From NCBI GenBank assembly GCA_030789695.1, contig CM061132.1, forward strand, positions 31,768,418-31,832,417: a stretch of 64,000 nt of DNA. The letters are read 5' to 3'. Position 1 is the first letter of the stretch; every line of letters starts with the position of its first letter. The stretch is from Scilla litardierei (lineage: Eukaryota; Streptophyta; Magnoliopsida; Asparagales; Asparagaceae). Positions 9,977-37,921 of this stretch are shown here, piece after piece. The position numbers and the translations under genes are program-made. The notes under the pieces were generated by a model. It saw only the letters and a list, made by a program, of their open reading frames with translations. It had not been told where the DNA came from and ran no database searches.

Positions 9977-10042
9977 GATCAGCGTACTGACACACAGGAT
10001 CACACCCACTTTGAAAGAAATTCAAAGTATTATGGATGACCT

Positions 10043-10054: not shown

Positions 10055-10056
10055 AT

Positions 10057-15639: not shown

Positions 15640-15644
15640 GTAGT

Positions 15645-16773
15645 TGTTGCAGGGTAAAACCCGCGTAAAATAAATTAGTATTATGGGGAACCAAGGGCAC
15701 GGTGGTTATGTTGATGACGGGATTACGGTAGGCTATTCAACAGGTGATTAGTGGGGTGATGAGGCTAAACCCGTTGCGAAGGCAGACCACGGTATCGAAT
15801 CCGGAAGGATGTAGTAGAAGGGCCGAACTGCCTGGAGCAGGGACGAGCATGACCGATGGTGACGAGCTAACCTGCGCAATGAGCAACTCGTCAGAAAGGC
15901 CGGGTTGGGGTCCAACCCTTAGCCTCTCCGATGCCCAAGTCAGTAATAGGACTTAAAGCGGGGGCTAGGCACGCGGGTCGGACTGAGGGTGAGTCGACCG
16001 CACGTGACGAGCTATAAATGGTGGAAGAACAAAGATATGGGAGACCTTTGCTCTTGTGTGTGAGTAATAAGATTTAGAGTGAATTAGCCAACCTCTTTCC
16101 CGTTGGAGGCGAAGGGGTATTTATACCTGGTGGAGGCGGTTAGGTGGGGCTGACCTGGCATGCTGACTTGGCGTTCCGAGTTGGCTTGGTTGTCAGCGGA
16201 AGCTTTAGACGAGGATGTCAGGATCAAGGGTGTCAGCCACACTTTTGTTAGACGGCGCAACGGCCAGGGGCGCTTTTGTCTGGGTGTCAGGGCCGAAAGC
16301 ATTAAGTGTCAGGGGGCACAGTGGCGAGGGGGTGCTTTGTCAGATGGTCGTGCGGCGATAGTGTCAGTAGTGTCCTTGTACTAGGTGGTTTGTCGTGTCC
16401 GATGTGCCAAAGAACCGTAGGAGCACCTCCTAGGGGCGGAGCCAGCGACGGGCTACCGGGCCGGCCTGGATTCAGGATGTGCGGTCCGGACGTACACTTT
16501 GTGTGCTGTTCCTGGCGAACCGGGGGAGAACGGGTGCGCGTCCCGCCGTGATCGTGGTGGAGAGCGCCCCTATCAACGGCTGAGGTGGAGCACGCCCTTC
16601 CCCCAGTCGTGTCGATCCCCAGGATCGACAGGCGCTCTGCAGGCCTTGGAAGTTCGGGCGAGGAGCGCCCTGTCGCTGGGTCGGCTGCCCTTCAGGAGGG
16701 TGGGATGAGCCGGCGGGGTATTTCGGTGGTTTGGGATGGAAGGTCGGACTATCACGATCTTCAGGTCGTAACA
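15645..16773 (-). repeat. 3' LTR of E1 (left outer LTR of the compound element)
   Basis: 1129 bp; reads TGTTACGACC...GCAACA on the minus strand. The internal purine tract CCGGGGGCAAA adjoins it at about 16774-16785 (minus strand). About 6% diverged from 32978-34106 by eye in the part compared. Contains many GTGTCAG-type short repeats around 16180-16380. Confidence 0.93.
16118..16125 (-). promoter_or_regulatory. LTR TATA box (E1, 3' copy)
   Basis: TATAAATA on the minus strand, conserved at the matching place in the other two LTRs (33452-33459 and 37437-37444). It is the likely core promoter of the element. Confidence 0.7.
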
Positions 16774-17256
16774 TTTGCCCCCGGCATTTGAGCTCGAGGT
16801 GGAAGCCCGGCTTAGCTCGGATGACGTATCACTTCCCCTACCTTGAACCGACAATTCAGATTTCGATCCGCGCTCGGGAGAGGCGGCGCAGGTCTCAGAA
16901 TTCCCGCCATGTTGGCCATTATTGAGATTTGAAAGAGCAAGGGGAAATCGAAGCGCCTCCATTATTGAACTCGCGACGCGTGGATGAGGTGACTTTCGTG
17001 CCAGTCGAGGCGTCAGGGATGCTCCGATGGACGTCGCGTGGTGGCATGTCGACGGTTGAGATGGCATGTTGCCTTCTTTAAGTATGGGGAGATGGAGATT
17101 AGAGGACACTTTCTTCCGATTTCAACTCTTCCTCGCGCTTTCCGGCTTTCATTCAACGCTCGCTGACGTTGTCGCTGTTGCCATCGTCGGAGATCCGCTT
17201 TCGATCGTCCTCTCAGCTCGACCGCTCTGCTAGGTAATCCCTATATCCTTTATTCG

Positions 17257-19253
17257 ATGGCCTCTCATTCTGACTTCGGAGGGGGTAGTAGCGTGGCGAC
17301 GGAGGAGTCAATGGAAGAGGAGAGGTGGGGGGTGCAGAGGCCTCGGAGTAGGGGGTTGTGGCGCACCGACGTGCCGAGGGAGATAGAGGCCGTTAGATGT
17401 AGGTCGTATCGGATCAACATTAGGGAGATTCGAGTGCGGTTCGTGCGTCCGCCCTGGGAAGTGCGGGTCCCTGGACCAGAGGAAAGGGTGTGTTCGCCTG
17501 GGGATAATGAAGTTGGGGTCTACGCCCGGTCCTTCGAGTTGGGACTTCGCTTCCCGATCCACCCTTATCTCCTCCACATGTTGAATTTCCTAGAGCTGTC
17601 GATCTTTGCCCTGGCGCCCATCTCCTGGGGCTTGCTAGTGGGGTTTGTCGTCCTGTGCCTCGCCAGCTCCCTGAATCCGTCCCTGGCGCTGTTTCAGCAC
17701 TTCTTCGTAGTTCGAAAGAGGGGGATGTACCACTGCGTCTATGCGAGGAGGGGACATGAGATCGTCGTCCGGGTGCCCGCCGATGTTGGTAGGTGGACCG
17801 AGGATTTTGTCTTTGTTATGATGCCGGTCAACGTGGTGATGTTATCAAACTGGGGATCGCTGAATCCTCGAGTGAATGCGAGGGTGAAGCTAGCCAGTGA
17901 GGATCTGGTGAAGGCGCAGATTTTGGCGGAGCTGCCCGAGGCGCACCGCAGGCTGGCGAGCTTGACGCATGACAACAGGCTCGCCCATGATTTTTGGTCC
18001 CAAGGTGGTTTGAATTTGGCGAGCCTTTATGTAGGCTTACCCTGATCTTTCTCTCCTTCGCAGGAGAAGACGCCATGCATTCGCCGGAGGAGGGGTCGAG
18101 GGCCGTCGAAGTGCCGGTTGGGGAGAGCGCCGATCCTCGTGATAAGGGTAAGAAAGCAATGGGCGAGGAGGGGCCGGTAAAGGAGGTGTCCCGGAAACGG
18201 AGTGCTGATGTCCAGGGTGAGGAGGAGGCAAATCGAACGCGAAGGACGTCCGAATCTTGCCCCTCTTCCGGTCAAGCTGGTGAGGGCCTCCCCGAGGGTT
18301 CACCCATTCGGGGAGTGGTCCTCCCGGTTCCTACGCGGGTACCCGAGGCGGGGAAGCCTTGCAAGGCACCCCCGGTCCAAAAGTGGCCTTACAGAATCCC
18401 CCTGTGCGAGATGGGAAGGGCGACGAACCCGAGCTACGAGAATGCTCTCATCCGCTTTAAGCGGACAAAGGCGGAGGTCGAGGCGCTTCCAAACGACAGT
18501 CTTTACCCGCAGACCTATCGGATGGGCCGTGATGAGTCGATATTTGAGGATGCCGGGGTGGAGGTGCGTCTAGTGGAGTATTGCCTGCTGTCGCGGGATT
18601 GCAAGTCCCTGATCCACGTGGGGGGCGGAGCGGCTATGCGGTTCCATCGTGTGGCACGTCATGCAGGTAGGCCGAATTCCTCGTCTCGCCTCCCAAGTTT
18701 TCTTTGCTTGTGTCTGAATGAGTGGGGTCTTTTTGTAGATGGTCACGGTAATGGCGACAATGCGGCACCGAACTCTGGTGGCTGCCACAAAGGCGGCACT
18801 CGACAAGGTAAGGGTCGACCTTAGTGAAGTCGGAGAGAAGCTGCGGGAGAAGGAGGAGCTGGTGCGGGTCATGGTGGCCTATGAGGTTGAGAAGGGGTGG
18901 GTCGCGTACTTTGATGCGACGAAGGCTAGGCTCGAGCGTCAGCTTCTGGAGGAGGCACACAAGCAGGCCAATATCCTGGCGAGGCATGCCGACGAGATGT
19001 CTACAAGCAACGGGTAATCGAGCTGCAGGTGGGACAGATAGCCGACCTGAAGAAGACCATTGAGGCGGAGAGGAGGGAGAAGGGTATCCTGAAGCAGCAA
19101 CTGGAGGAGAGATGGGGGGTTGAGCACGACGTGATCGAAGCCGCTATCCACCGTTACCATGACGAGCATGTCGTTCCGCTGCTGCAAGAGGCAAGGGAGG
19201 CGGGAGTTCGTCAGGTGGCGAGGGAAATGGGGGCTCGGCCGGCGGAGAGGTGA
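17257..19253 (+). pseudogene. Antisense gene I of E1 (Transposase_28-like plus coiled coil), spliced
   Basis: Runs opposite to gag-pol. Exon 1 (17257-18004) encodes a Ser/Glu-rich leader, then a domain (FELGLRFPIHPYLLHMLNF...GFVVLCLA...LFQHFFVVRKR) resembling PF04195, 'putative gypsy type transposon'. A 59-nt intron (18005-18063, GT...TTCGCAG) joins two different frames in phase 1. Exon 2 (18064-18666) has a basic/acidic linker and the block MGRDESIFEDAGVEVRL. A second intron is likely at 18667-18738 (GTAGG...TTTTTGTAG). Exon 3 starts at 18739 and is a long coiled coil. Against the E2 copy there is one extra G near 18621-18626 and one missing base near 19000, so the frame is broken. An AATAAA signal follows at 19370-19375. 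Function unknown; such antisense ORFs are known in Tat elements. Confidence 0.75.
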
Positions 19254-20137
19254 CGGCGCTGAGGACTTAGAGTAGGGGAACTTTGTCTCTTTTTGTACGG
19301 CCGGCCGGGGGCTGGGCCCGATGTAATGTTGTATTCTCGGCGGGCTCCGTGAATAGCCTCACCATTTAAAATAAATGAAATGGATTGGTTCTGTTTTAGT
19401 TTCCTTTCTTACTTATTGGGTGTGTAGACTGTTTGATTGTGAGGGTATAAATTCCCCCAACGTCCCTCTGTCGACGACTGCTGAGTGGTGGGGAGAGGGA
19501 GGTTGAGACATAGTACGTTTGGCAAGGGTATGAGGGTGAGCTCGGGGTGACCCGGTGGGTCCGTCGGGTCGAGGCGAGTTGAGGCGTTCTGCCCGGTCCG
19601 GTTGAGGATGGTTGGTGCCGCAGTCCGACCTCGACTGTGTGCTGCTCAGTCTCCTGGGCTGTATTAGTGGTGGCATGGCCCTTCTTGGGATTGAGTAAAG
19701 GAGGATATTTGGCGTAATTATTTCGCATCGAAAGAAGGCAGAGATCAAAGCGTCTCGGTGTCCGTTGCATGAGCCGAGGTGTCCGTTGCACGAATCGAGG
19801 CGATCTTTTCGAATCGACGGCGCCTGGAAATCGAAGCGGTTCGGCCATTCCTCAGGTGACTCATGGCGGATGCGACAGCCGCTGTCAGTCGAGGCGTCAC
19901 ACCGCACGGATCGAAGCGTCAGGAAGCACGGATCCTCGATGTGTGGCGGGATTTATACGGTCGCGATCATTCAGGGCGTCTTATAAAGTGCTCTAGGTGG
20001 GAACGAGTGAAGATTTCTCCCTTTTGAAATTCTCTTAAGAGCTTGCGATCACCAGAGATTGTAAGGTCCTTGCCGAAGTTGCCGTCGGAGATCCGTCCGT
20101 CATCTTAGCGTCGTCGTCGAAGCCGTCGACATCGTAA
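19254..20137 (+). other. Spacer between antisense genes I and II
   Basis: Contains the 3' flank and AATAAA (19370-19375) of gene I. The segment ending near 19445 is the point at which the inverted E2 copy begins (34107). A TATA-like TTATAAAG at 19981-19988 lies about 150-180 bp before the start of gene II and may be its promoter. Confidence 0.5.
19981..19988 (+). promoter_or_regulatory. Possible TATA box of antisense gene II
   Basis: TTATAAAG, well placed upstream of ATG 20138/20162. No other promoter evidence was found. Confidence 0.35.
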
Positions 20138-20161
20138 ATGTATTTCATCTCTTTCTTCTTG

Positions 20162-22400
20162 ATGTCTTCGTCAACCTCTTCTATCCATTTGCCGGAGTCG
20201 AGGGAGGTAGAGGAAGAGGGGTCAGGCGCGGCTACGGTGCATAGCACTGGGGAGACGGAAAGTCGGAGCCGGAACGTGGGCGGGGAGCCATCGGTGAGCT
20301 CGCCCACAGCGGCCCCAAGGGACCTAAAGAAGGGGAAAGGGCACGTAGCTAGGGCCTCAAAGACCACTACTCCGGCCGCTGTGACCGTGGCGGAGGCTGG
20401 AGAGGTGCCCGATGAGATCACGGGTGTGAAGTCGGTGCTGAGGAAGTCCCTCTCGGAAATCTTGAACTTCCTGGAGTTACCACTGTTTCGCCTGATGCCG
20501 AATTCCATCAGCGTGATCGTCGGCTTTTTGGTGCTGTGCGCGAGCAACCAAGTCTGTCCGTCCCTGTCCCCATTCCGGTATTTCTTTGCGGTGAAGAGAC
20601 AGAGGTCCTATTATTACCTGTCCTCGAAGAGTAGTCATCCTCTCATCAGAGGCCTGCCGGAGAAGATCAAAGGTTGGAGCAGACAGTATGTGTTCGTCTC
20701 CGTGCTCGCGGATGTGGTGATGAGATCGAACTGGGGGGAGCTAAATCCCGAGGTGAAGGAGGGGATTGAGCTGAGTGACGAGGAGGAAGATGTGGCCCGG
20801 TCTCTGATGGAAATCCCGAAAGAGGGCCGGGAATTTGGAATGCTTGCCAAGCCCGACATGATAGTGCGGCACATTTGGCCCGAAGGTAATACGAACTTTG
20901 TGGTTGCTGCCTCTAAAGTGCTCACTCTAAGCTTTCCCTCTTCTGCAGGCCGCACCATGAGTATTTCGCTCAAGGAGATGAAGAGGCGAGCTGCGGAGCA
21001 GGCGACACAGAAGGTGAAGAGGGCAGACCCGAAGAGGCCGTGCGAGGAGGCCGGAGGGGAGGGTTCAAGGAAGGGGAAGGCGTCCTCGAAGAGGACGAGG
21101 TTGCCCGCGACATCGTCCGTTGCCGATCCTCGGAGGGAGAGGGGTGCCAGTCGGCTCGGGGAAGGGACTGTTCAAGGAACCGTCGCCCCGGTCATCTATC
21201 TTGAGTCCAGGGGTGAGGGGCGGACAGAGCCAGGGGTGGGCGCCCCCGAAGCCCGTCCGCCGAGCCTGAGGGTACCCCCCACCGCTGAGAGGGTCATAGC
21301 ACAAGATCACCCCGAGTGCTTTGGCGGGTCGGGCTCTGGGCCCATGTCGTCGGGTTGGGAGGGCTGGCCTTACGACTGCCCTCGGTTTGTTTTGGAGAAG
21401 CAGGCCCACCCCAGCTGCGAGGCCTCGCTCATCCACTTCAAGGCCAAAAAGGCCGAGGTCGAGGGTTATCCGGAGGAAGCCCTTCATCGGATATTCTTTC
21501 CCATGGGGGCCGACGAGTCCGTCTTTGAAGACGGTGGGGTGGCAGCAAGGTTGGCGGAGAACTGCCTGCTGCCCCGTAATAGGGAGGCCCTCGTCGGTGT
21601 AGGTCATGAGGGTCTGTGCGGGGCCGCACTGTGGCACGACATCCAGGTAGGTGGCACGGGCCGAGTTAAATAATCCCGATGTTTTGTTAAGGAATGTGTT
21701 ACGATGTAGACCTCCAGGTTCTGCCCGGTCTGACAAGCTTTTGTTCTACCGTGCGGGCCATTGTCATGATGGTCATCGCCAAGGGCCACACGCCTGCCAT
21801 CAACAAGGCAGAGGGCACTGTCGTCTGAATGGCGAGCGAGCTTGCCGCGCTCCGCAAGAGTGCCGAGGAGCAGTTGGCAGAAGAGAAGGGTAAGCGCGAC
21901 TCGTTGGAGTCGGAGGTCATGCACCTGAAGGCGCTCCCGACGGAGTATGAGACGAAGGCCACCTCTGCGCCCGACCGGGTGAGGGAGCTGGAGGGCGCGC
22001 TTGAACGGGGGGAGGCACGTGTGGATGACCTGGAGGCCCAGGCGAAGACCGGGAGAGAAGAGTTGACCCTGAAGACCGAGGAGTTTCGGTCGTATCAGGA
22101 GTCGACCGTCATCCCGCCCTCACGGACGTGACGTATGATGGCATGGTGAAAGGTCAGGCCATGGGCTGGGAGGCCTGCCTGAGCCGGGTGAAGGAAAGGG
22201 TGGCCAACCTCTGCCCTCTGATTGAGGTTGACTTTGACGCGCTAGTGGCCTCGGAGGGGAGGAAGAAGCGGGGGACGACGAGGACGTGGTCGTCGATGAA
22301 GCGACCGTTGACAATGAGGCCGACCCCTCAGAGGTTGACGGGAGGGACGTCGCACTAAGCGGCGGTGCCTTAGGTGGCATTGGCCCACAAGAGAAGTTTT
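20162..22400 (+). pseudogene. Antisense gene II of E1, diverged paralogue of gene I
   Basis: Open from 20138 to 21673; the start may be the second ATG at 20162 (MSSSTSSIHL). After a Ser/Thr-rich leader it aligns to gene I: ILNFLELPLFRLMPNS, GFLVLCAS, YFFAVKRQR, NWGELNPEVK, then MGADESVFEDGGVAARL. The first intron is at the same place as in gene I (20886-20948) but is 63 nt, so read-through stays open. The second donor follows CACGACATCCAG at 21646; no clean acceptor was found. The downstream coiled-coil part (21830-22128) is separated by TGA at 21826-21828, and the acidic tail (22130-22400) is frame-shifted. It lacks the FELGLRFPIHPY block of gene I. Function unknown. Confidence 0.68.
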
Positions 22401-22524
22401 GTCTAGCCCTTCTTCCCCTCTTTTTTTGTTTAGAAGGAACGGTAGGGCTGGCCCGAGGGAGACCTCGTTTTGTTAGGTCGGCCCCTGCTACTATTGTAAA
22501 GTTCGGACTACATACATATTGAAG

Positions 22525-24225
22525 TTTCTGTTATTTTGTTATCTCTTGCATGGTGTATCACCGAGTTGTATCTGTGGGACAAGGGGGAGTGCGCAGCTCG
22601 GCCCTTGCCCTTTTTAACGAGGGTGAGCATGTAGCTCAGACTTTTCTCTTCATCATCTTAGGTGGCATAGTTTCGTGAGCTCGCCCCGCAGTTTGACGGG
22701 GATCGTTCCCAAGTTAGAGCACGCCTAGATAATGCTTAGGAATTCGCTTGGAATAGCCTTTTTCATTAACTTTTACAAGAATTTAACAAAAATGACAGAG
22801 GTTGGTTAAATGTGTAACTTCGGAGTTCTGATGGGATCCGGTGAGTAATCCAATCTGTGGGCGGGCTGGGAAGCTGTTTCACTTTATTGTAAACTGCATC
22901 AAGATGTGCGGGCTCCTGTCTGCAGGGCGGCCCTCCTTCTCTTCCATTGCTCGTCGCATTTCTCTTCACCTTCCCTATGCTGAATGGTTGTGAGGTTTCA
23001 TTGCAGAATCCGCGGCTCGGAGGGGGACCCTGGGAGTGGGGGAGAACGAGGTGGCAGTGGCGCGCTGCCTCTCCTTTCACCTCCTCGACCATGAAGGGTT
23101 GCATGGTCTCTCCTGGGAATCCTTGACTCGAAGGGAAACCCAGGAAGAGGTGGAGAACGAGGCGACAAAGGTGGAGCCGGGAGCCTCGGCGGCGTGGCCT
23201 CTATGGGAAGAAAGAGGAACGGGAGGCGGGCCGTTAGGAGGTGGGCCGGTGGAAGCTGGAATGCCCCGTGGGGCATTTGCCTTCTCCGCCGGTGGGGATC
23301 GGGGTGGAGCGGATGCTGGTAGGGAGGAGCGACCCGCCGCAGGTCTTCTTGTTCCCCTGTCGTGAGTTGTCTAGGAGAAGTCGAGGAGTGGAAGGCGGGG
23401 CTCTCCTCGTGTAAGAGGAATAGCCCATCGGCGATCCGTATGTAAGAGGAATAGCCCATCGAAGGGGCAAGCCGTTGGGAGGCGGGCCCGCGGAGGCTGG
23501 TATGTCCAGGCGGAGGCTGGTATGCCCAGTGGGGCGATCTGGCAGGGCTCCCCCGTCCCTTGGGCTCGCGACCCGGAGCGCCAGCACCCGTCGGGCACCG
23601 GAAGAGGGGAATGGTCGGACATAGGTGCTCCAATTCCCTTGGCGTAAGTTGTCCAAGGTAATCAAGGAGTGACCGGCGGGCCTTCCCAGGTGTAAGAGGA
23701 ATAGCCCACCGGTGATAGCCACGTGGAAGCTATTGGCAATCGGGGAGGTGGGGTCCATTGATGGCTGGGGGCCTACCCGGATGTTCCGGGCAGGGGTACC
23801 TCGCACCCTTTCATCCTTCATGGAGGGGATTGAGACTGACTTGCCCTCATATTTTCTTTCTCCTTTGCTCCTTCGGGGGGGAGAGGAGTATTTATAGAGG
23901 GATTTTGCTAACGGTTTTCAGGAAGTTAATGCGATGAGCTGGCATCATTAATAGGTTCCTCAGAGTCATGTCCTTTGAAACCGCTTTTGCCAGGTGGCTT
24001 CAGATGCGATTCGTCAGTCCTTGCCTCTCGGGGGATGTGCCGTCATTAATGGTGTGCTTCCTGAGTGTCCTTTCATTTTGAAGAGTCGCATCAGGGGAAT
24101 GCTTTATCGGGACTCTGTATTGACTGTAGGTTCTTGGCCTGCACGTGGCCCACCCTGGTTCACGTGCCTTAGTCCATTTCCCTAGATTCGGGTATTCGAG
24201 GTTCACGGGTCTGTTTGGGAAGACG
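22525..24225. other. GC-rich spacer of E1 with small direct repeats
   Basis: No coding frame is supported. The string GTAAGAGGAATAGCCCA occurs three times (about 23411, 23442 and 23692), and GGCGGAGGCTGGTATG occurs twice near 23510. The long minus-strand frames here are compositional. Confidence 0.5.
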
Positions 24226-26850
24226 ATTAGCGAGTGGCTCAGTCCGACCCATTCTCCAGTTGGGGAGGGGAGGTCGGATCCTGCCCCGGAGGCTTGACTT
24301 GAGGGGGGAGCGAGTGTGTAACTCGGTCCATGCCCTTCTTCGGTTTGGGTGGCAAGGACGGATCCTGCCGCAGGGTCTTTGAGGGGGGAGAGCGAGCGCA
24401 TAGCCCAGCCCGTGACTTTCTCCGGTTTGGGTGGCGAGATTTGGTCCTACCCCAGAGTCTTTGAGGGGGGAGCAGGCACGTAGCCCGGCCCTTGCCCCTC
24501 CCCGGTTTGGGTGGCGAGGATTGGTCCTGCCCCAGAGTCTTGAGGGGGGGAGGGAGCGCGTAGCCTTGCCCGTGCCCTTCTTCGGTTTGGGTGGTGAGGA
24601 TTGGTCCTGCCCCGGAGTCTTGAGGGGCGGAGCGAGCGCGTAGCCTGGCCCGTGCCCTTCTCTGGTTTGGGTGGCGAGGATTGGTCCTGCCCTAGAGTCT
24701 TGAGGGGGGAGCAAGCACGTAGCCCGGCCCGTGCCCTTCTCCGGTTTGGGTGGCGAGGATTGGTCCTGCCCCGGAGTCTTGAGGGGGGAGCGAGCGCGTA
24801 ACCTGGCCCGTGCCCTTCTCCGGTTTAGGTAGCGAGGATTGGTCCTGCTGCGGAGTCTTGAGGGGGGGAGCGAGCGCGTAGCCCGGCCCATGCCCTTCTC
24901 TGGTTTGGGTGGCGAGGATTGGTCCTGCCGTGGAGTCTTGAGGGGGGAGCGAGCACGTAGCCCGGCCCGTGCCCTTCTTCGGTTTGGGTAACGAGGATTG
25001 GTCCTACCCCGGAGTCTTCAGGGGGGAGCGAGCGTGTAGCCCAGCCCGTGCCCTTCTCTGGTTTGGGTGGCGAGGATTGGTCCTGCCCCAGAGTCTTGAG
25101 GGGGGGAGCGAGCGCGTAGCCTGGCCCGTGCCCTTCTTCAGTTTGGGTGGCGAGGATTGGTCCTGTCCCGGAGTCTTGAGGGGGAGAGCGAGCGCGTAGC
25201 CTGGCCCGTGCCCTTCTCTGGTTTGGGTGGCGAGGATTGGTCCGGCCCCGGAGTCTTGAGGGGGGAGCGAGCGCGTAGCCCGGCCCGTGCCCTTCTCCGG
25301 TTTGGGTGGCGAGGATTGGTCCTGCCCCAGAGTCTTGGGGGATGCGAGCGCGTAGCCCGGCCCGTGCCCTTCTCCGGTTTGGGTGGCGAGGATTGGTCCT
25401 GCACCAGAGTCTTGAGGGGGTAGCGAGCGCGTAGCACGGCCCATGCCCTTCTCTGGTTTGGGTGGCGAGGATTGGTCCTGCCCCAGAGTCTTGAGGGGGG
25501 GAGCGAGCGCGTAGCCCGACCCGTGCCCTTCTCCGGTTTGGGTGGCGAGGATTGGTCCTGCCCCAGAGTCTGGAGGGGGGAGCGAGAGCATAGCGCAGAC
25601 AGTGCCCTACTTCGGTTTGGGTGGCGAGGATTGGTCCTGCCCCGGAGTCTTGAGGGGGGAGCGAGCGCGTAGCCCGGCCAGTGCCCTTCTTCGGTTTGGG
25701 TGGAGAGGATTGGTCCTGCACCGGAGTCTTGAGGGGGGGAGCGAGTGCGTAGCCCGGCCCGTGCCCTTCTCCGATTTTGGTGGCGAGGATTGGTCCTGCC
25801 CCGGAGTCTTCAGGGGGGAGGAAGCGCGTAGCCCAGCCCGTGCCCTTCTTCGGTTTAGGTGGCGAGGATTGGTCCTGCCCCGAAGTCTTTAGGGGGAGCG
25901 AGCGCGTAGCCCGGCCCGTGTCCTTCTCCGGTTTTGGTGGCGAGGATTGGTCCTGCCCCGGAGTCTTGAAGGGGGGAGCGAGCGCGTAGCCCGGCCCGTG
26001 CCCTTCTCTGGTTTGGGTGGAGAGGATTGGACCTGCCCCGGAGTCTTGGGGGGAGCGAGCACGTAGCCCGGCCCGTGCCCTTCTCCAGTTTGGGTGGCGA
26101 GGATTGATCATGCCCCATATTCTTGACGGGGGAGCGAGCACGTAGCCTGGCCCGTGCCCTTCTCCGGTTTGGGTGGCGAGGATTGGTCCTGCCCCGGAGT
26201 CTTGAGGGGGAAGCGAGCGCGTAGCCCGGCCCGTGTCCTTCTCCGGTTTGGGTGGCGAGGATTGGTCCTGCACCGGAGTGTTGATGGGGGGAGGTAGCGC
26301 GTAGCCCGGCCCGTGCCCTTCTCCGGTTTGGGTGGCGAGGATTGGTCCTGCCTCGGAGTCTTGAGGGGGGGAGTGAGCGTGTAGCCCGGCCTGTGCCCTT
26401 CTTCGGTTTGGGTGGCGAGGATTGGTCTGGCCCCAGAGTCTTGAGGGGGGAGCGAGCGCGTAGCCCGGCCAGTGCCCTTCTCCGGTTTGTGTGGCGAGGA
26501 TTGGTCCTGCCCCGGAGTCTTGAGGGGGGAGCGAGCGCGTAGCCCGGCCCGTGCCCTTCTCCGGTTTAGGTGGCGAGGATTGGTCCTGCCCCGGAGTCTT
26601 GGGGGGGAGCGAGCACGTAGCCTGGCCCGTGCCCTTCTCCAGCTTGGGTGGCGAGGATTGGTCCTGTCCCGGAGTCTTGAGGGGGGGGGGGGAGCGAGCG
26701 CGTGGCTCGGCCCGTGCCCTTCTCCGGTTTGGGTGGCGAGGATGGGTCCTGCCCCGGACTCTTGTGCGGGGGGAGCGAGCGTGTAGCTCGGCCCGTGCCC
26801 TTCTCCGGTTTGGGTGGCGAGGATTGGTCCTGCCCCGGAGTCTATTGCGT
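24226..26850. repeat. 79-bp minisatellite, about 33 units
   Basis: Head-to-tail array of a GC-rich unit of mostly 78-80 bp. Each unit carries GGTTTGGGTGGCGAGGATTG, then TCCTGCCCCGGAGTCTTGAG, a G-run of 5-10, GAGCGAGCGCGTAGC, and CCGGCCCGTGCCCTTCTC. I count 33 units, the outermost being the most diverged. It begins about 80 bp past the pol stop of E1. Because the unit is not a multiple of three and has few stops, long frames run through it in several frames of both strands (for example 24825-26273 minus, 482 codons); these are not genes. Amplified tandem repeats in this position are known for the Retand family. Confidence 0.93.
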
Positions 26851-26928
26851 TTAAACTGAAATTCTCAAGTGGAGACAGCAAGGTTTGGAAACACGAAGAA
26901 AAGAAAGTATTTCATTAAAGACTCATAA

Positions 26929-28392
26929 TTATTGATAATATTTCAGGAGATGTTCCGCATTCCATGGGTGGGCCAGTTCGCTCCCCTCCAAGGTCGCCAA
27001 GATGTAGGTGGCCGGCCCGACTATGTCGATGATCTCGTAGGGCCCCTCCCATTTGGCCTCCAGCTTCCCTCGACGAGCAGTCTCGAGCTTGAAGGTGGTG
27101 TCTCTAAGGGCCAAGTCGCCAATTCTGAAGGTCTGCTTCTTCACCCGGGAGTTGTAGTGCCGGGCCATCCTTTGGCTCTACCGGACAAGGTTCGTCAGGG
27201 CCCGGTCTCTCACTTCATCGACGAGCTCGAGGATGAGGGCGAGGCCCTCTGCGTTGATGCCTTCGTCGAAGTACCGTAGCCGGAGTGTCTCCTCTCCAAT
27301 CTCCACAGGGCGACCGCTTCCGATCCGAACGCCAACTTGAACGGGTCTCTCCGGTCGAGGCTTTGTGGGTGGTACGATATGACCAAAGAATGCCTGGTAG
27401 CTCGTCCACCCATGCTCCCAGGGCGGCATCGACTTTCTTCTTCAGGGGGCCCAATATGCATTTGTTTGCTGCCTCCGCCATCCCATTGCATTATGGGTGG
27501 GCCACGGAGGCAAAATGAAGCTTGATTCCCCAGCCCGAGCATAAATATCGAAAGCCTTCGCGGTCAAACTGCCGCCCATTGTCTGTCACTATCGAGCGGG
27601 GAATCCCGAAGTGACTGATCACAGACTTCCAAATAAAGCCATTCATGTCCGTCCATGGGATGCGAGCGAGAGGTTCGGCCTCGATCCATTTGGTGAAGTA
27701 GTCCACCGCGACGACCAGGTATTTCCTCCTTCCGGAGGCCTTTGGAAAGGGTCCGAGGATGTCGAGCCCCCAGTTGGCAAAAGGGATCGGGCTCAAGATA
27801 GGGACAGGTGGGCCGGAGGCGCCGCCGTGTGTCTATCAAACTTCTGGCATGCCCCGCACCTCTTGACATAACGGGCCGTGTCATGGATCATTGTCGGCCA
27901 ATAGTATCACTGGCGCACTATCTTGTGGGCGATAGTACGCCCGCCATGGTGGTTCCCGTAGAAGCCCTCCTGCACTTCTCGGATGACCTGTTCTGCTTGC
28001 TCCGGCACCAGGCACTTCAGGTAAGGCAGGATGTCAAACCTGGCGTGGCGTCGGCGGTATAGCACTCCGTCGAAGAGCACGAACGACAGTGCCCACCTCT
28101 CTATCTTCTTGGCTTGCTGCCGCTCCTCGGGCAGGGCCACCGTCTCCAAGTACTTCACTATTGGGGTCATCCACGTCGTCGTCGGGCCGACACACATTAG
28201 TTCTTCTTCCTCAATGGTAGGCGCCAGCAGACTTTCGATGTAGATGGCCTTTCCGATCTCGGTCGCGGAGGAGGAGGCCAGCTTCGACAGGGCGTCAGCC
28301 CCAAGGTTGTGGGAGCAAGGTAAATGCTGGACCTCCGCTCTCTTGAATTTCTGGAGCTCGGCCTGGATGCGCTTGAGGTAGCATTTCATCAT
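26929..28392 (-). pseudogene. pol: E1 integrase region, broken
   Basis: The minus strand shows the tail of the second RNase H (HLPCSHNLGADALSKLAS), then the integrase zinc site (GNHHGGRTIAHKIVRQ followed by YYWPTM and a CxxC further on), the catalytic core with D (FANWGLDILGPF), D (VTDNGRQF) and E (MAEAANK), and a C-terminal part ending HLLKYYQ at 26929. In-frame stops sit at 27907-27909 (TGA) and 27491-27493 (TAA), with a frameshift near 27350-27400. Integrase would insert the cDNA into the host chromosome; this copy cannot make it in one piece. Confidence 0.85.
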
Positions 28393-28422
28393 CTCTTTTC
28401 GGGCCTCGAAGCTCCCTTGGAC

Positions 28423-30134
28423 CTATTGGACGATGATCCGCGAGTCACTAAGCAGTAGCACGTTCGTCGCCCCCATCGCTCTACAAAGCGTCAGCCCATT
28501 GACCACGGCCACATACTCCATGATGTTGTTGGTTGCCGGGAAGTTGAAGCGGAGGGCGTACTCCAACAGGCATCCGTCGGGGGTTTGGATGACGATACCT
28601 GCCCCTGTCTCGGACCCTGTCACCGAGCCATCGATGTGAATGGTCCACAATCTGCCCGCTTCTCCCTGGGCGGGCTCCGAGGGTCCAGCCACCCCCATTG
28701 CATGTGGGGATGCAGCCGCTGGTGGTGCGTCTGGTAGGTTCTCTGGGGGGGTCTTCAATAGTGTGCTCCACCACGAAGTCTGCCAGCGCCTGGCCCTTGA
28801 TCGCTGTCCGGGCCTTGTTTGTTATGTCGACCTCGCTGAGCTCGACACTCCATTTGAGCATCATGCCTGACCGCTCTAACCTCTTCAGGTTCTTCTCGAG
28901 GGGCAGGTTGGTGTGGACGGCGATGGGATGAGCCTGGAAGTACGACCGGAGCTTCCTCGCCGTTGTGATCAGACAGTAGGCGGCCTTCTCGATGCAGTTG
29001 TAGCGAGTCTCCGCCTATCGAAGAATCCAGCTTGCATAGTATACTGGCTGATGCACGCCCTTCTCCTCTTTGATTAAGACGGAGCTGACGGCTTCTTCAT
29101 TGGTCGCCAGGTACAACCCTAGCTGTTCTCCTACCTCCGGCTTGGCGAGCAGCGACGGGCTCTGCAGGTACGTCCTCAGCTCCGCAAAAGCTCGAACGCA
29201 TTCGTCGTCCTACGAGATCACTTTCTTGTTGATCTTTGCTTTGCCGAAGGCCATGTGTAGGACTCTGAAGAAGGGGAGCGACCTCTCCGTGGACTTCGAC
29301 AAGAATCTCCCCAAAGCCACGATCCGGCCGTTCAGCCGCTGCAAGTCCCGGATGGTCCATGGTTCAGCCATATTGACGAGGGCTGACACCTTTTCAGGGT
29401 TCGCCTCAATCCCTCACTTCGCTATCATGAAGCCAAGGAATTTCCCCCGACTACATGCCGAAGACGCGGTTCGCCGGGTTCAGCCTCAGGCCATACTGGC
29501 GCACCTTCTGGAACGTCTCCTGCAAGTCGGCGAGGAGGTCCGGGGCTCTGTTTCTCTTCACCAGCATGTCGTCGATGTAGACCTCCAGGTTTCGCCCGAC
29601 CTACGAGCTGAATATCTTGTCCACCATCCGCTGGTAGGTCGCCCTGTCGTTCTTCAGTCCGAAGGGCATCTTCGTGTAACAGAAGGTGCCGCTATCGGTG
29701 ATGAAGGACGTTTTCTCCTCGTCCTCCTTTGCCATCGGGATCTGGTTGTAGCCCGAGAAGGCATCCATGAAGCTCAACAACTCGTAACCGGACGCCTGGT
29801 CGACCAAGTGGTCGATCCTTGGGAAGGGGAAGCTGTCCTTCAGACACACCTTGTTAAGATCCGTGAAGTCGACGCACATGCGCCACTTCCCATTGGCCTT
29901 CTTCACCACGACGACATTGGCGAGCCAATCCAGATAGTCCACTGGCATGATGAACTTGGCTTGGAGAAGCCGCTCAACTTCTTCATCGGCTGCCCTCTTC
30001 TTCTCTCCCCCGGCACTCCTTTTTTTCTGCCGGACTGGTCGAGATCCCGGGTCCGCATTCAAATTGTGGGAGATTACCGTTGCGTCGACCCCTGGCATGT
30101 CCGCGGTTGACCAGGAAAATATGTCGACGTTGTC
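28423..30134 (-). pseudogene. pol: E1 reverse transcriptase with two RNase H domains, broken
   Basis: RT motifs: KANGKWRMCVDFTDLNK, FMDAFSGYNQI, MPFGLKNDRATYQRMV and the catalytic YIDD (29568-29579). RT thumb and connection follow (MAEPWTIRDLQRLNGR). The native RNase H block (GLYLATNEEAVSSVLI, about 29000-29130) is followed by a second RNase H of archaeal type (WTIHIDGSVTGSETGAGIVI, about 28575-28645). The dual RNase H is typical of Tat elements. Stops include TAG at 29601-29603, TAG at 29451-29453 and TGA replacing Arg in the AKRGIEAN block; there is a 1-nt shift near 29455. Confidence 0.87.
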
Positions 30135-31247
30135 TCAGAGGAGGCTGATGAGGGCTGCCCTCAGAGAAACCGGGAGCTTCGTGCCGATGGAGACAGTCTT
30201 GCCCTCCTCCGCGGCCATGGACACCTCTTCGACCTCTTCAGCGGGAGTTGGCTGTTGGTCACAGAAGTCCTCCCTTTCATCAAGGAGGTCGACCGATACG
30301 GCCTGCTCCGGACCCTTATGCTTGGTCGACCCCACGTAGCAGTTCCTGGACAGCTTCTGGCTCCCCCTCACCAACCCCACCCCGAGTGGAGTTTGGAATT
30401 TCACCATCTGGTGGAGCAGGCTGGGGAGCGCTTCAATGGCCGTCATGTATGGTCGTCCTATGATCCCGTTGTAAGCCGACACGATGTCGACGACAACGAA
30501 TTGTGTCATGAGAGTGACGACTTTCAGTTCCTCTCCAAGTGACACCGGCAAGGTGATCACTCCCACAATGGGAACCGAGTGGCCAGTGAAGCCGACGATG
30601 GGCCCCATGCAAGGCCTCAGGTCTGCCTGCTTCAGCCCCATCTTCTCGACTGTCGACATAAACAGGATGTGGCAAGAGGTTCCAGTATCGATCAGGAGCC
30701 GGCTGATGATGGTCGTCCCGATCTGAGCCTCGATGACAATGGCATCGTCATGCAGAAGCTCGACTCCTTCTAGGTCTTTGTCAATGAAGGTAATGGGGGG
30801 TCGAGCCACTCTCCATCGCTTCACCTCGCTGCTGAGGCCCGCCGCCATCACTTGCCGGGCGTATGCCTTCTTGCTTGACAACGACGCTCCCCCGGAGGAT
30901 GGCCCCACGTATATCACTTCTATGTGCATGACCGGCCTGGGGGGGTGTGGCTCCTCTCGCCCGTTGTCTGGTGGTGTGTCCGGCCTCCATGCGCCTCGCG
31001 GGGCCCTCTCCTCCTGGAACATTCTCCTGCCCTCCACGAAGCCCCCAAGGTGACCCGCCTGTATCAGGCGCTCGATCTCTCTCTTGAGGGTGAAGCAATC
31101 GTCGGTATCATGACCATGGTCCTGGTGATACCGACAATACTTCCGGACGTCTCTCCTCGCAGGGTCCGACTTCATTTCCCTGGGCGGGTCCGGCAGTAGT
31201 CCGGCCCTGGTCGCCGCGGTCAACACCTCTATCATGGGGGCATTGAG
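30135..31247 (-). pseudogene. E1 gag C-terminus and protease
   Basis: In the same frame as gag upstream and RT downstream, separated by TAG at 31248-31250 and TGA at 30135-30137. It shows the Tat-type zinc-like block YCRYHQDHGHDTDDC with LKREIERLI, and the aspartic protease active site LLIDTGTSCHILF (DTG at 30681-30689), with a later IIGRPYM block. The protease would cut the gag-pol polyprotein inside the particle. Confidence 0.85.
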
Positions 31248-31250
31248 CTA

Positions 31251-32942
31251 CGTGTACTGGGCCCGAAGGGGTCCCTCCAGCCTCGGGATTGCTCGGGCGG
31301 GCTCCCGGGTGGGGGCGAATTCTCGCACTGGGCCCGGGCGATCTTGCAGACGACGCCCCCCTGGGTCGCGTCTTGGCTGAGTCGGCTGGTCGCGGTCCCT
31401 GGGCCCGTTTTCTTGCCTCGGCCTGGGATAAGACCGAGGCTCGCCCTGGGGCAATTTCACCGGGGCGACTGGTTTCTTCCCACCGAGAGTCTTCTCGCTC
31501 AGCGCATATCTCTCCGCCTGAGCGATTAGCGTGTCGTAGTCGGCGGGCGGGTCCCGGAGCAAGGATTTGTGAAGGCTCCGATTTCGCAGTCCCGTCTTGA
31601 AGGCTAGCATGAGCACTTCATCGTCGCAGGCCACCACTACCCGCCTTTCATCTTGAAAGCGGTGCAGGTACTTCCCAGTCGTCTCTCCTTCTCCTTGGAC
31701 TATCGTGCTGAGGTAGTCCAAAGTCTTCTTTTTTGTGCGCCTGTCCCGAAACTCCTGGCAGAACTTGTGGGATAATTCGCCGAAGCTCCCGATGGATCTC
31801 GCCGGCAAGCTGTAGAACCACTCCAGCGCCGTGTCCCGCAGGCTCTGCGAGAAAAGCCGGCGCAGGAACGCGGCATCCACATCCTGTGCATCCATCGCCC
31901 CTCTGTATTGTTGCACGCGCGAGAGGGGGTCGCCCTTTCTGTTGTACGTGGCCAGGTGGGGTGCCTTGAACCTCGCAGGCCTTGGGGCCGAGGTTATCCA
32001 TCACGCAAGCGGCGTGGCCTCCTCAGGGTAAGCGGGGCGCTCCGGTGCGCGCCCTCTCCGCCACTCCGGGGTTTGGCTCCGGTCCCGCCTCAGCTGTCGA
32101 CGGTCATTATGCCCCGGGGAGGGACGAAGTGGTTGCCGGAGAGGACTCCTTCTGCGCGGAGGGGATCCGGTGGGTGACGGACTACGGGCGGTCCAGTATC
32201 GCCGGCCCAAAGCCGTTGCCTCCGGGATCTCCCTCCGCTCCCGATTCTCCCTCAGGAGCCTCTCGCGCTCTGCGATGAGGAATCAGAGTTGTTGACGAAT
32301 GGCTTCCTCGTCGAGGCGGTCCAGGGAGAGACGCCGACGGGGGGGACTCTGCCCCCGAGGTGGGGACCTGGCAAACGAAGGGCTGCGCTCGTTCATGTGT
32401 CTTCAGCCCGCCGTCGACACCTCCGAGATCTCCCGGTTCTCCTCATTCTCCCACCGGAGCCTTTCGCGCTCCGCGATAATGAAGCGGAGCTGGCGACATG
32501 CGGCCTCTTCATCGAGGAGGGATCGACGAGCGGCCTCGGCCGCTTCGTCTAGATTCCTCTGTGCAGCAGTTGCCTCCTCCTGGCGCCTTCGCAGCCGCGC
32601 GACCTTCGTCTCTTCCTCCAAGAGCCTTTGCTGGGCCGCTATCTCCTCGGCGAGCCCTTTGTCCCCTACTTCTTCGTCGAATTGAGGCTGAAGGTTTCGC
32701 CTCACGTTTGAGGGCTCAGAGGGGCCGGGAGGCGCTTCGGTCTGGGCCGCTGTGAGACCCGCCATCATCTTGGCGAAAGCTTCGAAGCTCTGCTGTACCG
32801 CCCGGGCCGAGGCCTGGACTGTCTCGGCCTCCACCTCGGGAGGTGGGTTAGTCACTGGAGTCATTGGATGAGAATGCGATTCTTGGTCAGCGGGATCCTT
32901 GCCGTGGTCAGGATTTCGGTTGATTGGTATGGGATCTGACAT
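31251..32942 (-). pseudogene. gag: E1 gag, three nonsense codons
   Basis: Starts at ATG 32942 (MSDPIPINRNPDHGK) shortly inside the primer site. One frame continues to 31248 with TGA at 32403-32405, 32283-32285 and 32001-32003. The N-terminal part is a charged coiled coil containing a duplicated block (DEEAACRQLRFIIAERERL and DEEAIRQQL...FLIAERERL). The retrotransposon-gag core follows (FKAPHLATYNRKGDPLSRV, ALEWFYSLPARSIGSFGEL, KKKTLDYLSTIVQGEGET). It would be the capsid precursor. All three stops are TGA where CGA/CGG Arg is likely, pointing to C-to-T decay. Confidence 0.85.
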
Positions 32943-32957
32943 GGGTGTGACCCTTCG

Positions 32958-32975
32958 TTCCCACAGACGGTGCCA
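32958..32975 (-). other. Primer-binding site of E1
   Basis: The minus strand reads TGGCACCGTCTGTGGGAA two bases inside the LTR end. This is the primer-site type I associate with Tat-lineage Gypsy elements; the exact tRNA was not checked. Confidence 0.75.
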
Positions 32976-32977
32976 AT

Positions 32978-34106
32978 TGTTGCGGGGGTAAAACCCGCGT
33001 ACAATGAATTTGTATTATGGGGAACCAAGGGCACGGTGGTTATGTTGATGACGGGATTACGGTAGGCTTTTCAATAGGTGATTAGTGAGGTGATGAGGCT
33101 AAACCTGTTGCAAAGGTAGACCACGGTGTCGAATCCGGAAGGATGTAGTAGAAGGGCTGAACTGCCTGGTGCAGGGACGAGCACGACCGATGGTGACGAG
33201 CTAACATGTGCAAGGAGCAACTCGTCAGAAAGGCCGGGTTGGGGTCCAACCCTTAGCCTCTCCGATGCCTAAGTCAGTAATAGGACTTAAAGCGGGGGCT
33301 AGGCATGCGGGTCGGACTGAGGGTGAGTCGATCGCACGTGACGAGCTGTGAAAGGTGGAAGAACAACGATATGGGAGACCTTTGCTCTTGTGTGTGAGTA
33401 ATAAGATTTAGAGTGAATTAGCCAACCTCTTCCCCGTTGGAGGCGAAGGGGTATTTATACCTAGTGGAGGCGGTTAGGTGAGGCTGACCTGGCATGCTGA
33501 CTTGGCGTACTGAGCTGGCTCGACTGTCAGCGGAAGCTTCGGACGATGATGTCAGGATCAAGGGTGTCAGCCACGCATTTGTCAGATGGCGCAACAGCCA
33601 GGGGCGCTTTTGTCAGGGTGTCAGGGCCGAAAGCATTAAGTGTCAAGGGGCGCAGTGGCCAGGGAGTGCTTTGTCAGATGGTCGGGCGGCGATAGTATCA
33701 GTAGCGTCCTTGTACTAGGTTGTTTGTCGTGTCCGATGTGCCAAAGAACCATCGGAGCGCCTTTTAGGGGCGGGGCCAGCGACAGGCTACCGGGCCTGCC
33801 TGGATTCAGGATGTGCGGTCCGGACGTACACTTTGTGCGCTATTCCTGGCGAACCGGGGGAGAACGGGTGTGCGTCTCGTCGTGATCGTGGTGGAGAGTG
33901 CCCATATCAACGGCCGAGGCAGAGCGCGCCCTTTCCCCAGTCGTGTCAGTCCCCAGGATCGACAGGCGCCCTGCAGGCCTCGGAAGTTCGGGCGAGGAGC
34001 GACTTGTCGCTGGGTCAGCTGCCCTTCAGGGGGTGGGACGAGCCGGCGGGGTATTTCGGTGGTTTAGGATGGAAGGTCTGACTATCACGATCTTCAGGTC
34101 GTAACA
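32978..34106 (-). repeat. 5' LTR of E1 (middle LTR)
   Basis: 1129 bp, same length as the 3' LTR, with a TATAAATA promoter motif at 33452-33459 (minus). Its U3 end at 34106 is not followed by a target duplication but directly by E2 internal sequence. Confidence 0.93.
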
Positions 34107-34314
34107 ATTAATTATACCCTCACAATCAAACAGTCTACACACCCAATAAGTAAGAAAGGAAACTAAAACAGAACCAATCCATTTCATTTATTTTAAACGG
34201 TGAGGCTATTCACGGAGCCCACCGAGAATACAACATTACATCGGGCCCAGCCCCCGGCAGGCCGTACAAAAAGAGACAAAGTTCCCCTACTCTAAGTCCT
34301 CAGCGTCGACGCCT

Positions 34315-36306
34315 CTCCACCGGCCGAGCCCCCATTTCCCTCGCCACCTGGCAAACTCCCGCCTCCCTCACCTCTTGCAGCAGTGGAACGACATGCTCAT
34401 CATGATAACGGGGGATAGCGGCTTTGATCAAGTCGTGCTCAACCCCCATCTCTCCTCCAGCTGCTGCTTCAGGATACCCTTCTCCCTCCTATCCGCCTCG
34501 ATGGTCTTCTTCAGGTTGGCTATCTGCCCCACCTGCAGCTCGATTACCCATTGCTTGCTAGCCATCTCATCGGCATGCCTCGCCAGGATATCGGACTGCT
34601 TGCGCCCCTCCTCCAGAAGCTGACGCTCGAGCCTAGCCTTCGTCGCATTAAAGTACGCGACCTACCCCTTCTCAACCTCATAGGCTACCGTGACCCGCAT
34701 CAGCTCCTCCTCCTTCTCCCGCAGCTTCTCTTCGACTTAGCTAAGGTCGACCCTCACCTTGTCGAGTGCCGCCTTTGTGGCAGCCACCGGAGTTCGGCGT
34801 CGCAGGGTCGCCATTGCCGTGACCATCTACAAAAAGACCCCACTCAGTCAGACACAAGCAAAGAAAACTTGGGAGGCGAGACAAGGAATTTGGCCTACCT
34901 GCATGACGTGCCACACGGCGGTACCGCACAGCCGCTCCGCTCCCACGCGGTTCAGGGACTCGCGATCCTGCAGCAGCAGATAATACTCCGCTAGACGCGC
35001 CGCCACCCCGGTACCCTCAAATATCGACTCATCACGGCCTATCCGATAGGTCGGCAGGTAAAGACTGTCGTTTGGAAGCTCCTCGACCTCCGCCTTTGTC
35101 CGCTTAAAGCGGATGAGAGCGTTCTCGCAGCACGGGTTCGTCGCCCTTCCCATCTCGCACAGGGGGATTCCGTAAGGCCACTTCTAGACCGGGGGTGCCT
35201 TGCAAGGCTTTCCTGCCTCGGGTACCCGCGTAGGAACCAGGAGGACCACTCCCCGAATGGGTGAACCCTCGGGGAGGTCCTCGCCAGCTTGACCGGAAGA
35301 GGCGCCAGATTTAGACGTCCTTTGCCTTCGGTTTGCCTCCTCCTCGCCCGGGACATCGGCACTCTGTTTTTGAGACACCTCCTTTATAGGCCCCTCCTCG
35401 CCCATCGATTTCTTACCCTTATCACGAGGATTGGAGCTCTCCCCAACCGGCACTTCGGCGGCCCTCGACCCCTCCTTGGACGAATGCATGGCGTCTTCTC
35501 CTACGAAGGAGAGAAAGATCATGGTAATCCTACATAAAGGATCACCAAATTCAAACCACCATGGGACCAAAAATCCTGGACGAGCCGGTTGTCCTGCATC
35601 AAGCTCGCCAACCTGTGGTACGCCTCGGGCAGCTCCGCCAAAATCTGCGTCTTCACCAGATCCTCACCATCTACCTTCACCATCTCATTCACTCAAGGAT
35701 TCAGCGCTCCCCAGATTGATATCAGCACCACGTCGACCGGCATCATAACAAAGACGAAATCCTTCGTCCACCTACTAACATCGGCGGGCACCCTAACGAC
35801 GAGCTCCCGTCCCCTCCTCGCACAGACACAAGGGTACATACCCCTCTTTCGAACTACAAAGAAGTGCTGAAACAGCACCAGGGACGGACTCAGGGAGATG
35901 GCGAGGCACAGGACGACAAACCCCACTAGCAAGCCCCAGGAGCTGGGCGCCAGGGCAAAGATCGGCAGCTCTAGGAAATTCAATATGTGGAGGAGATAAG
36001 GGTGGATTGGGAAGCGAAGCCCCAACTCGAAGGACCGGGCGTAGACCCCAAATTCATTATCCCCAGGCAAACACACCCTTTCCTCGGGTCCAAGGACCCG
36101 CACTTCCCAGGGCGGACGCACGAACCGCACTCAAATCTCCCTAATGTTGATCCCATTCGACCTACATCTAACGGCCTCTATCTCCCTCGGCATGTCGGTG
36201 CGCCACGTCCCCCTTCTCCGAGGCCTCTGTACCCCCAACCTCTCCTCTTCCATTGACTCCTCCATCGCCACGCTCTACCCCCTCCGAAGTCAGAATGAGA
36301 GGCCAT
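34315..36306 (-). pseudogene. Antisense gene I copy in E2, decayed
   Basis: Same exon order as 17257-19253 on the opposite strand: start ATG at 36304-36306, the Transposase_28-like block (FELGLRFPIHPYLLHILNF), the SIFEGTGVAARLAEY block and a coiled coil ending near 34315. Exon 2 ends WHVMQ before GTAGG, which shows the true phase of the second intron. Lesions: a 1-nt loss soon after the start, TGA for CGA before VRFVRPPWEV, TGA for CGA at 35693-35695, TAG at 35184-35186. Useful as the reference that exposes the frameshifts of gene I in E1. Confidence 0.75.
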
Positions 36307-36788
36307 CGATTAAAGGATATATGGATTACCTAGCAGAGCGGTCGAGCTGAGAGGAAGATCGGAAGCGGATCTTCGACGATGGCAACAGCGACCACGTCAG
36401 CGAGCATTGAATGAAAGCCAGAACGCGAGGAAGAGTTAAAATCGGAAGAAAGTGTTCCCTAATCTCCCTCTCCCCATACTTAAAGAAGGCAACAGGCCAT
36501 CTCGACCGTCGACACGCCACCACGCGGCGTCCATCGGAGCATCCCTGACGCTTCGACTGGCACAAAAGTCACCTCATCCACGCGTCGCGAGTTCAATAGT
36601 AGATGCACTTCGATTTCCCCCTTGCACTTTCAAATCGCAATAATGGCCAACATGGCGGGAATTCCGAGACCTGCGTCGCCTCTCTCGAGCGCGGATCGAA
36701 ATCCGAATCGCCGGTTTAAGGTAGGGTAAGTGATATGTTATCCGAGCCGAGCTGGGCTTCCACCTCGAGCTCAAATGTCGGGGGCAAT

Positions 36789-37916
36789 TGTTACGACCTG
36801 AAGATCGTGATAGTCCGACCTTCCATCCCAAACCACCGAAATACCCCGCTGGCTCGTCCCACCCTCCTGAAGGGTAGCCGACCCAGCGACAGGGTGCTAC
36901 TCGCCCGAACTTCCGAGGCCTGCAGGGCGCCTGTCGATCCTGGGGACCGACACAACTGGGGGAAGGGCACGCTCCGCCTTGGCCGTTGATAGGGGCACTC
37001 TCCACCACGATCACAGTGGGACGCGCACCTGTTCTCCCCCGGTTCGCCAGGAAAAGCGCACAAAGTGTACGTCCGGACCGCACATCCTGAATCCAGGCCG
37101 GCCCGGTAGCCCATCGCTGGCCCTGCCCCTAGGAGGCGCTCCGACGGTTCTTTGGCACATCGGACACGACAAACAACCTAGTACAAGGATGCTACTGGCA
37201 CTATCGCCGCCCGACCATCTGACAAAGCACCCCCTGGCCGCTGCGCCCCCTGACACTTAATGCTTTCGGCCCTGACACCCTGACAAAAACGCCCCTGGCT
37301 GTTGCGCCGTCTGACAAAAGCGTGGCTGACACCCTTGATCTTGACATCCTCGTCCGAAGCTTCCATTGACAGCCGGGCCAGCTTAGCACACCAAGTCAGC
37401 ATGCCAGGTCAACCCCACCTAACCGCCTCCACCAGGTATAAATACCCCTTCGCCTCCAACGGGGAAGATGTTGTCTAATTCGCTCTAAATCTTATTACTC
37501 ACACATAAGAGCAAAGGTCTCACATATCTTTGTTCTTCCACCATTCATAGCTCGTCACGTGCAGTCGACTCACCCTCATTCCGACCCGCATACCTAGCCC
37601 CCGCTTTAAGTCCTATTACTAACTTAGGCATCAGAGAGGCTAAGGGTTGGACCCCAACCCGGCCTTTCTGAGGAGTTGCTCCTTGCACAGGTTAGCTCGT
37701 CACCATCGGTCGTGCTCGTCCCAGCTCCAGGCAGTTCGACCCTTCTACAACATCCTTCCGGATTCGATACCGTGGTCTGCCTTCGCAACGGGTTTAGCCT
37801 CATCACCCCACTAATCACCTGTTGAATAGCCTACCGTAATCCCGTCATCAACATAACCACCGTGCCCTTGGTTCCCCATAATACAAATTCATTGTAGCGG
37901 GTTTCACCCCGCAACA
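36789..37916 (+). repeat. 3' LTR of E2 (right outer LTR)
   Basis: 1128 bp, plus orientation TGTTACGACC...GCAACA, preceded by the purine tract GTCGGGGGCAAT and followed by GTAGT (37917-37921). TATAAATA lies at 37437-37444. Confidence 0.93.
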
Positions 37917-37921
37917 GTAGT

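Follow-up and report, generated by a model that had tools for sequence, protein, structure and literature searches.

A head-to-head compound of Retand-like Gypsy elements in Scilla litardierei, bounded by two U5 ends and probably joined at an internal polypurine tract

How can three long terminal repeats (LTRs), belonging to two retrotransposon copies that face each other, end up within a single target duplication? The question is raised by a 22-kb insertion (positions 15640-37921) in a 64,000-nucleotide stretch of Scilla litardierei DNA (here, the window; C3:31768418-31832417 of the 3.68-Gb assembly GCA_030789695.1, C3 being contig CM061132.1). The insertion consists of a whole minus-strand Gypsy element, E1 (15645-34106), and, directly after it, E2 (34107-37916), the 3' end of another copy on the plus strand. 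Our analysis favors, as a reasonably probable reading, a GTAGT-bounded head-to-head fusion of a Retand-like element with a tract-started 3' end, in which an untrimmed U3 end was joined to a plus-strand end presumably primed at an internal polypurine tract (PPT) and integrase inserted the joint molecule via its two U5 ends.

The three LTRs share the form TGTTAC...GCAACA. On the left, the 3' LTR of E1 (15645-16773, minus strand) adjoins the first GTAGT (15640-15644) with its U5 end outward, and the end of its 3' PPT, GGGGGCAAA, stands ahead of it (16774-16782, minus strand). The middle LTR is the 5' LTR of E1 (32978-34106, minus strand), and the primer-binding site (PBS) starts two bases to its left, after AT. 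E1 is assigned its minus orientation by the PBS next to the middle LTR and the PPT next to the left one, and its internal sequence amounts to 16.2 kb. At 34106/34107, the U3 end of the middle LTR abuts E2 without a gap. E2 starts with ATT (34107-34109, plus strand), continues with an inner segment that runs from the 3' edge of an internal PPT to the 3' PPT (34110-36788, with the 3' PPT at 36780-36788, plus strand), and closes with a 3' LTR (36789-37916, plus strand) whose U5 end points outward to the second GTAGT (37917-37921). From 34112 to 36788, it is an inverted copy of the 3' part of E1, with 209 differences at 2672 sites. A preliminary description, made from the letters alone, had noted GTAGT on both sides, the same terminus at both outer LTR ends, and a direct fusion of the E1 5' LTR to an inverted, truncated sister element; the coordinates and LTR ends bear it out, both outer ends of the compound being U5 termini of 3' LTRs. 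This anatomy exceeds chance: the repeats are kilobase-long, and the joined flanks match elsewhere.

Was the compound inserted in one step? The two flanks, joined with one GTAGT, gave 29 genome matches, 10 of which extend over all 174 bases (7 at 88-94% identity and 3 at 78-80%). In the seven best of these empty sites, which were read, GTAGT occurs once in six and is replaced by GTGGT in the other; the alignments have no gap at GTAGT and small gaps a few bases to the right of it. Because its empty paralogues carry GTAGT once, the compound behaves as one clean insertion. As a separate observation, at least five further copies of the insertion-site sequence lie around the window in a region of about 0.2 Mb (C3:31756554-31962708, 89-94% identity), and more copies of it lie near C3:142-143 Mb and on C13.

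The LTRs tell of the date. Pairwise, they differ at 81/1128, 78/1126, and 80/1127 sites (Kimura two-parameter [K2P] distances of 0.0763, 0.0735, and 0.0754, with LTR edges in this alignment 1-3 bases off), the outer pair giving 0.0735 and the remaining pairs 0.0754 and 0.0763, and private changes number 38, 40, and 38 per LTR. The similar divergence claimed in the preliminary description is thus real, while its estimate by eye of about 6% has to be raised to about 7%. In the LTR tree that it had proposed as a check, which includes seven other LTRs of the genome (five further loci were tried, and two were dropped, both LTR ends not being located), the window's three LTRs form one clade (96/93) with near-equal tips, star-like and without resolution inside. 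The inner parts of E1 and E2 have a K2P distance of 0.083, slightly above the LTR values and within about one standard error of them by our own arithmetic. One event and one date are supported for the compound.

These observations also bear on an origin by rearrangement after integration, either by nested insertion with deletion or inversion or by recombination of neighboring elements. Most complexes in plants are said to be of this kind (PMC1950507), yet the single target duplication, the clean empty sites, the equal divergence of the three LTRs, and a second locus whose joint lies at the same tract (see below) render this origin exceedingly improbable here. The nested form, which the preliminary description had considered a poor fit, is rejected because of the target duplication, the empty sites, and the second joint at the tract.

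What lies at the point where E2 starts? It is the place where 46 of 48 sampled family copies carry an internal PPT (GGGGGCAA/TTATACCC). The family sequence ahead of E2's first bases reads GTTGGGGGCAA, then TTATACCC, and the tract resembles the 3' PPT, which reads GCCGGGGGCAAT ahead of the LTR. The sample stems from 53 distinct matches to the post-tract motif in the fetched loci, 5 of which looked like chance on reading. A G tract, intact or decayed, stands before the motif in those 46 copies, as a PPT-like feature whose internal position is constant in the family; the two copies without it are the joints of the window and of a second locus on contig C2334. In E1, the tract (19452-19460, minus strand, positioned by counting in the alignment) is decayed to TTGGGGGAA, GTTGGGGGCAA being found in most sampled copies. 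E2 starts at the 3' edge of the tract, the point from which plus-strand DNA would begin were the tract to serve as a primer. The chance of two such joints both lying no more than 3 bases from the tract in about 16.2 kb is near 2e-7 (our own arithmetic, post hoc), and the fit of both joints to the tract makes a chance coincidence unlikely. It is predicted, from the two joints that start there, that the internal tract primes plus-strand DNA.

The second locus repeats the arrangement. C2334 (28,209 bases) begins within the tandem repeats of a minus-strand element and continues to its 5' LTR (9689-10820, minus strand). Beyond this LTR comes the same type of joint, then a plus-strand segment, E2', which runs from the same point to a 3' LTR (14999-16129) followed by ATTCC; about 1.1 kb is absent from E2', and some 2.8 kb is inserted in it. 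Over LTRs and pol, C2334 and the window are 80-83% identical, and the two LTRs of C2334, 91.7% identical to each other, are sisters in the tree (100/100). The LTRs group by locus and not by place in the compound, indicating that each joint arose in an event of its own, provided that gene conversion has not wiped out their history. The right flank of C2334 is a diverged repeat, and 373 places (100 among the matches listed) show an LTR end preceded by something near ATTCC.

How, then, were the two ends joined? The window joint reads CGTAACA-ATT-AATTATACCC, and the C2334 joint reads TGTAACA-ATT-ATTATACCC, with GTAACA-ATT-(A)ATTATACCC as the common form. Past the CA of the LTR, both have ATT and then 10 (window) or 9 (C2334) bases native to the tract edge. 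Of the 21 sampled 3' PPTs that passed a G-tract filter, 20 have AAT ahead of the TG of the LTR, and ATT is the complement of this AAT, i.e., of the bases between 3' PPT and LTR that integrase would trim. An untrimmed U3 end, together with an end starting at GGGGGC/AATT (window) or GGGGGCA/ATT (C2334), would give both joints with nothing added. We suggest that the E1 cDNA would have had its U3 end left untrimmed, that plus-strand synthesis on another cDNA may have been primed at the internal tract, and that E2 would then be a partial cDNA from this tract to its own U5 end. End-joining, and not integrase, would have united the U3 end and the tract end, and integrase would have accepted two U5 ends in inserting the joint molecule. 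Integrase can use two U5 ends in vitro.

The preliminary description had instead proposed that the U3 end of one cDNA attacked a second cDNA. In a more specific, autointegration-like form of this idea, the trimmed U3 end of E1 hit a plus-strand discontinuity that the E2 cDNA had at the tract, or a place near it, and two-U5 integration followed; the partners and outer ends are the same as with end-joining. However, an attack by integrase would place CA on native sequence, and end-joining is favored for this reason: both PPT-type joints keep ATT between CA and the native sequence, which the attack leaves unexplained, and the upstream part of E2 would also have to be lost. We regard such an attack as quite unlikely.

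Template switching, the alternative given in the preliminary description, stays a live rival, if an unlikely one. Reverse transcriptase, having reached the U3 end on the E1 minus strand, would have jumped to the end of another minus strand, that of E2, whose synthesis had halted at the internal G tract, with plus-strand synthesis completing a joint molecule that has two U5 ends. The same joint is expected within a base or so, and template switching is accepted as a source of three-LTR complexes (PMC1950507). If the jump were guided by the shared CAATT, it would yield GTAACAATTATACCC, which by our own reading is seen in neither joint, and this microhomology-guided switch is rejected; an unguided, end-to-end jump is compatible with the joints.

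Further joints were searched for with four probes, each of which scored 40 of 516-1319 candidates. With a 200-base probe across 34106/34107, two of the 40 scored places span the joint (the window and C2334); among the remaining 38, the match begins only at base 63-66 in 37 places and at base 58 in one. The 261-, 76-, and 77-base probes each matched across the joint only at their own source locus. Since three of the four probes thus missed the other known joint, the joint count is a lower bound, and further old PPT-type joints may well exist. An exact pattern for PPT-type joints gave two matches (the backward-read control gave 1 and 1). No U3-U3 joint was found with an exact pattern of 20 bases that allowed a gap of 0-14 bases, a result that excludes close copies only. 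In a family with at least 7061 U5 ends, a joint might also be an assembly artefact; the window joint nevertheless matches the expected cDNA ends to the base and recurs on another contig and in another subfamily, and the sequences flanking the compound agree with empty sites at paralogous places, which makes an artefact very improbable. Two minor observations may be added. At L058 (C2099, about 13.3 kb), the LTR start is repeated about 22 bases on, behind a PPT, possibly by insertion of one LTR into another near its start. At C3:138083025-138089672, six LTR U3-end matches are spaced by about 310-345 bases, some of them consecutive, and this LTR may there have given rise to a tandem array.

Other copies with U5-U5 outer ends, pointed to as a check in the preliminary description, do occur. 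A third compound, C3:150586900-150595487, was spotted via an LTR match that had a second, inverted one next to it; it has U5 ends on both sides and GACAC on both sides. From left to right, it comprises a U5 piece of about 320 bases, pol-gag, a minus-strand 5' LTR without about 29 U3 bases, and an inverted plus-strand U5 piece of about 184 bases, and its U5 pieces differ at 18/319, 8/184, and 8/184 sites. Its joined flanks match continuously, at 91-94%, at 40 of the 40 scored places (the best 40 of 2586 candidates, judged from the matches), and it looks like another clean insertion, into a repeat. The claim that the window compound arose by one insertion of a joint molecule via two U5 ends is sustained by the target duplication, the empty sites, the star-like LTRs, and this second duplication-bounded U5-U5 case. 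It seems that a pair of U5 ends can be used regardless of the kind of joint, a PPT joint being one way to such a molecule.

Several points weigh against the joining of an untrimmed U3 end to a tract-primed end. (i) The 3' PPT of E1 itself is the one exception among the 21, reading AAA, and the E1 U3 end fits ATT only given a later mutation or an origin from another copy. (ii) The AT of two bases on the U5/PBS side may suggest a cut after GGGGGCA in both tracts, in which case 2 bases would have been added at one joint (window) and 1 at the other (C2334). (iii) The internal tract is conserved no better than its flanks in alignments of 29 and 19 copies (GGGGGCAAT is intact in 16/29 and 12/19), and a similar G tract, GGGGGAAATT, occurs at 29448 in E1. 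(iv) The left edge of the C2334 compound lies beyond the contig, and our search located neither this edge nor a target duplication; the joint at 34106/34107 is known from the assembled sequence. (v) PPT-type joints are rare, with two exact matches versus at least 7061 U5 ends in the family, and the joint of the third compound, between its 5' LTR and the inverted U5 piece, is not at a PPT and, by our own reading, shows a few shared bases.

Three-LTR complexes within one duplication are already known, but in line (PMC1950507 and the accessible part of PMC11899658). Those of Triticeae, rice, and maize have one 5-bp target duplication and are attributed to joining of the molecules ahead of their integration (Sabot and Schulman 2007, PMC1950507). 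The window compound resembles these template-switching complexes in its three LTRs, two bodies, one 5-bp target duplication, and probable joint molecule before integration; unlike their two complete bodies in line with a shared middle LTR, it is head to head with one body partial, has two outer U5 ends, and is joined where an internal PPT lies. Tandem LTR-retrotransposon structures of plants, as far as the accessible part of PMC11899658 goes, are likewise multi-LTR insertions with one target duplication, whereas their LTRs and bodies alternate in line and no head-to-head case appears there. Extra PPTs upstream of the 3' PPT are, according to an excerpt of PMC2829016, known from Sireviruses, Athila4, and Calypso, with a role in plus-strand synthesis called unclear; the internal tract is a like feature of a plant element, and it differs from what that excerpt gives in that two chromosomal joints mark its edge as a likely cDNA end. 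Similarly, in 2-LTR circles of human immunodeficiency virus type 1, the junctions between cDNA ends retain U3 bases that were not trimmed and remnants of the PPT (PMC5618025), but there one cDNA is joined U5 to U3, whereas here two cDNAs would have been joined U3 to internal tract and then integrated.

Among the literature matches listed, covered by titles and abstract openings and including few subscription papers, we found no head-to-head U5-U5 insertion and no internal-PPT joint. Autointegration via a central flap has reportedly been studied in Ty1. The likeness lies in cDNA self-damage involving an internal plus-strand start; unlike the Ty1 case, which is said to concern yeast cDNA circles, the window compound is integrated in a chromosome and has untrimmed U3 bases at its joint.

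If our reading is true, two chromosomal fossils mark, within a base or so, an internal second-strand start of a plant Gypsy element. Integration in nature would then not always require one U3 and one U5 end, because clean 5-bp duplications surround two loci that end in U5 on either side. The wider proposal, that a working internal tract gives Retand-type elements a defined, joinable cDNA end and that cleanly inserted head-to-head dimers with two U5 termini are a recurrent route, is one that we hold evenly balanced. LTR finders expecting direct repeats may miss or split head-to-head compounds, which, as long inverted repeats, might matter for the structure of the genome and for transcripts that form hairpins. 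The joint offers a simple signature for searching long-read plant genomes.

The assignment of the element rests on 8 of the 36 frames, which were scanned. Minus-strand gag-pol remnants (28481-32000) gave profile matches for gag (31248-32000), reverse transcriptase (29601-30134), and RNase H (28481-29014); a protease match fell below the cut-off, and integrase had no match among the scanned frames. Two plus-strand antisense frames between pol and the 3' LTR match Transposase_28 (PF04195) above the cut-off, one within 17167-18824 (in the frame 17167-18045) and one at 20138-21673, and tandem repeats of about 79 bp occupy 24219-26841. Judged by these sequence features, namely, the gag-pol matches, the antisense Transposase_28, and the tandem array, the element fits the Retand lineage. 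The accessible part of PMC11963269 gives antisense Transposase_28 (TRP28) in 97% of Retand clusters, LTRs of 315-1194 bp, and internal regions of 7.4-12.9 kb in selected clusters. The window LTRs (1128-1129 bp) are inside the range, and the 16.2-kb internal region of E1 is above it; as the latter figures come from selected clusters, they represent a size range and not a defining limit. The internal tract sits between the two antisense Transposase_28 frames. By eye, 17167-18824 and 20138-21673 are alike, as if they were a duplicated module, and the tract may stem from duplication of this antisense module.

Outside the compound, a putative copia-like element is present at 51478-59191 of the window, with an open frame of 1650 amino acids (51478-56430) and a second long frame of 925 amino acids (56414-59191). 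A related, partly broken copia-like copy is located at 2258-10021 on the minus strand.

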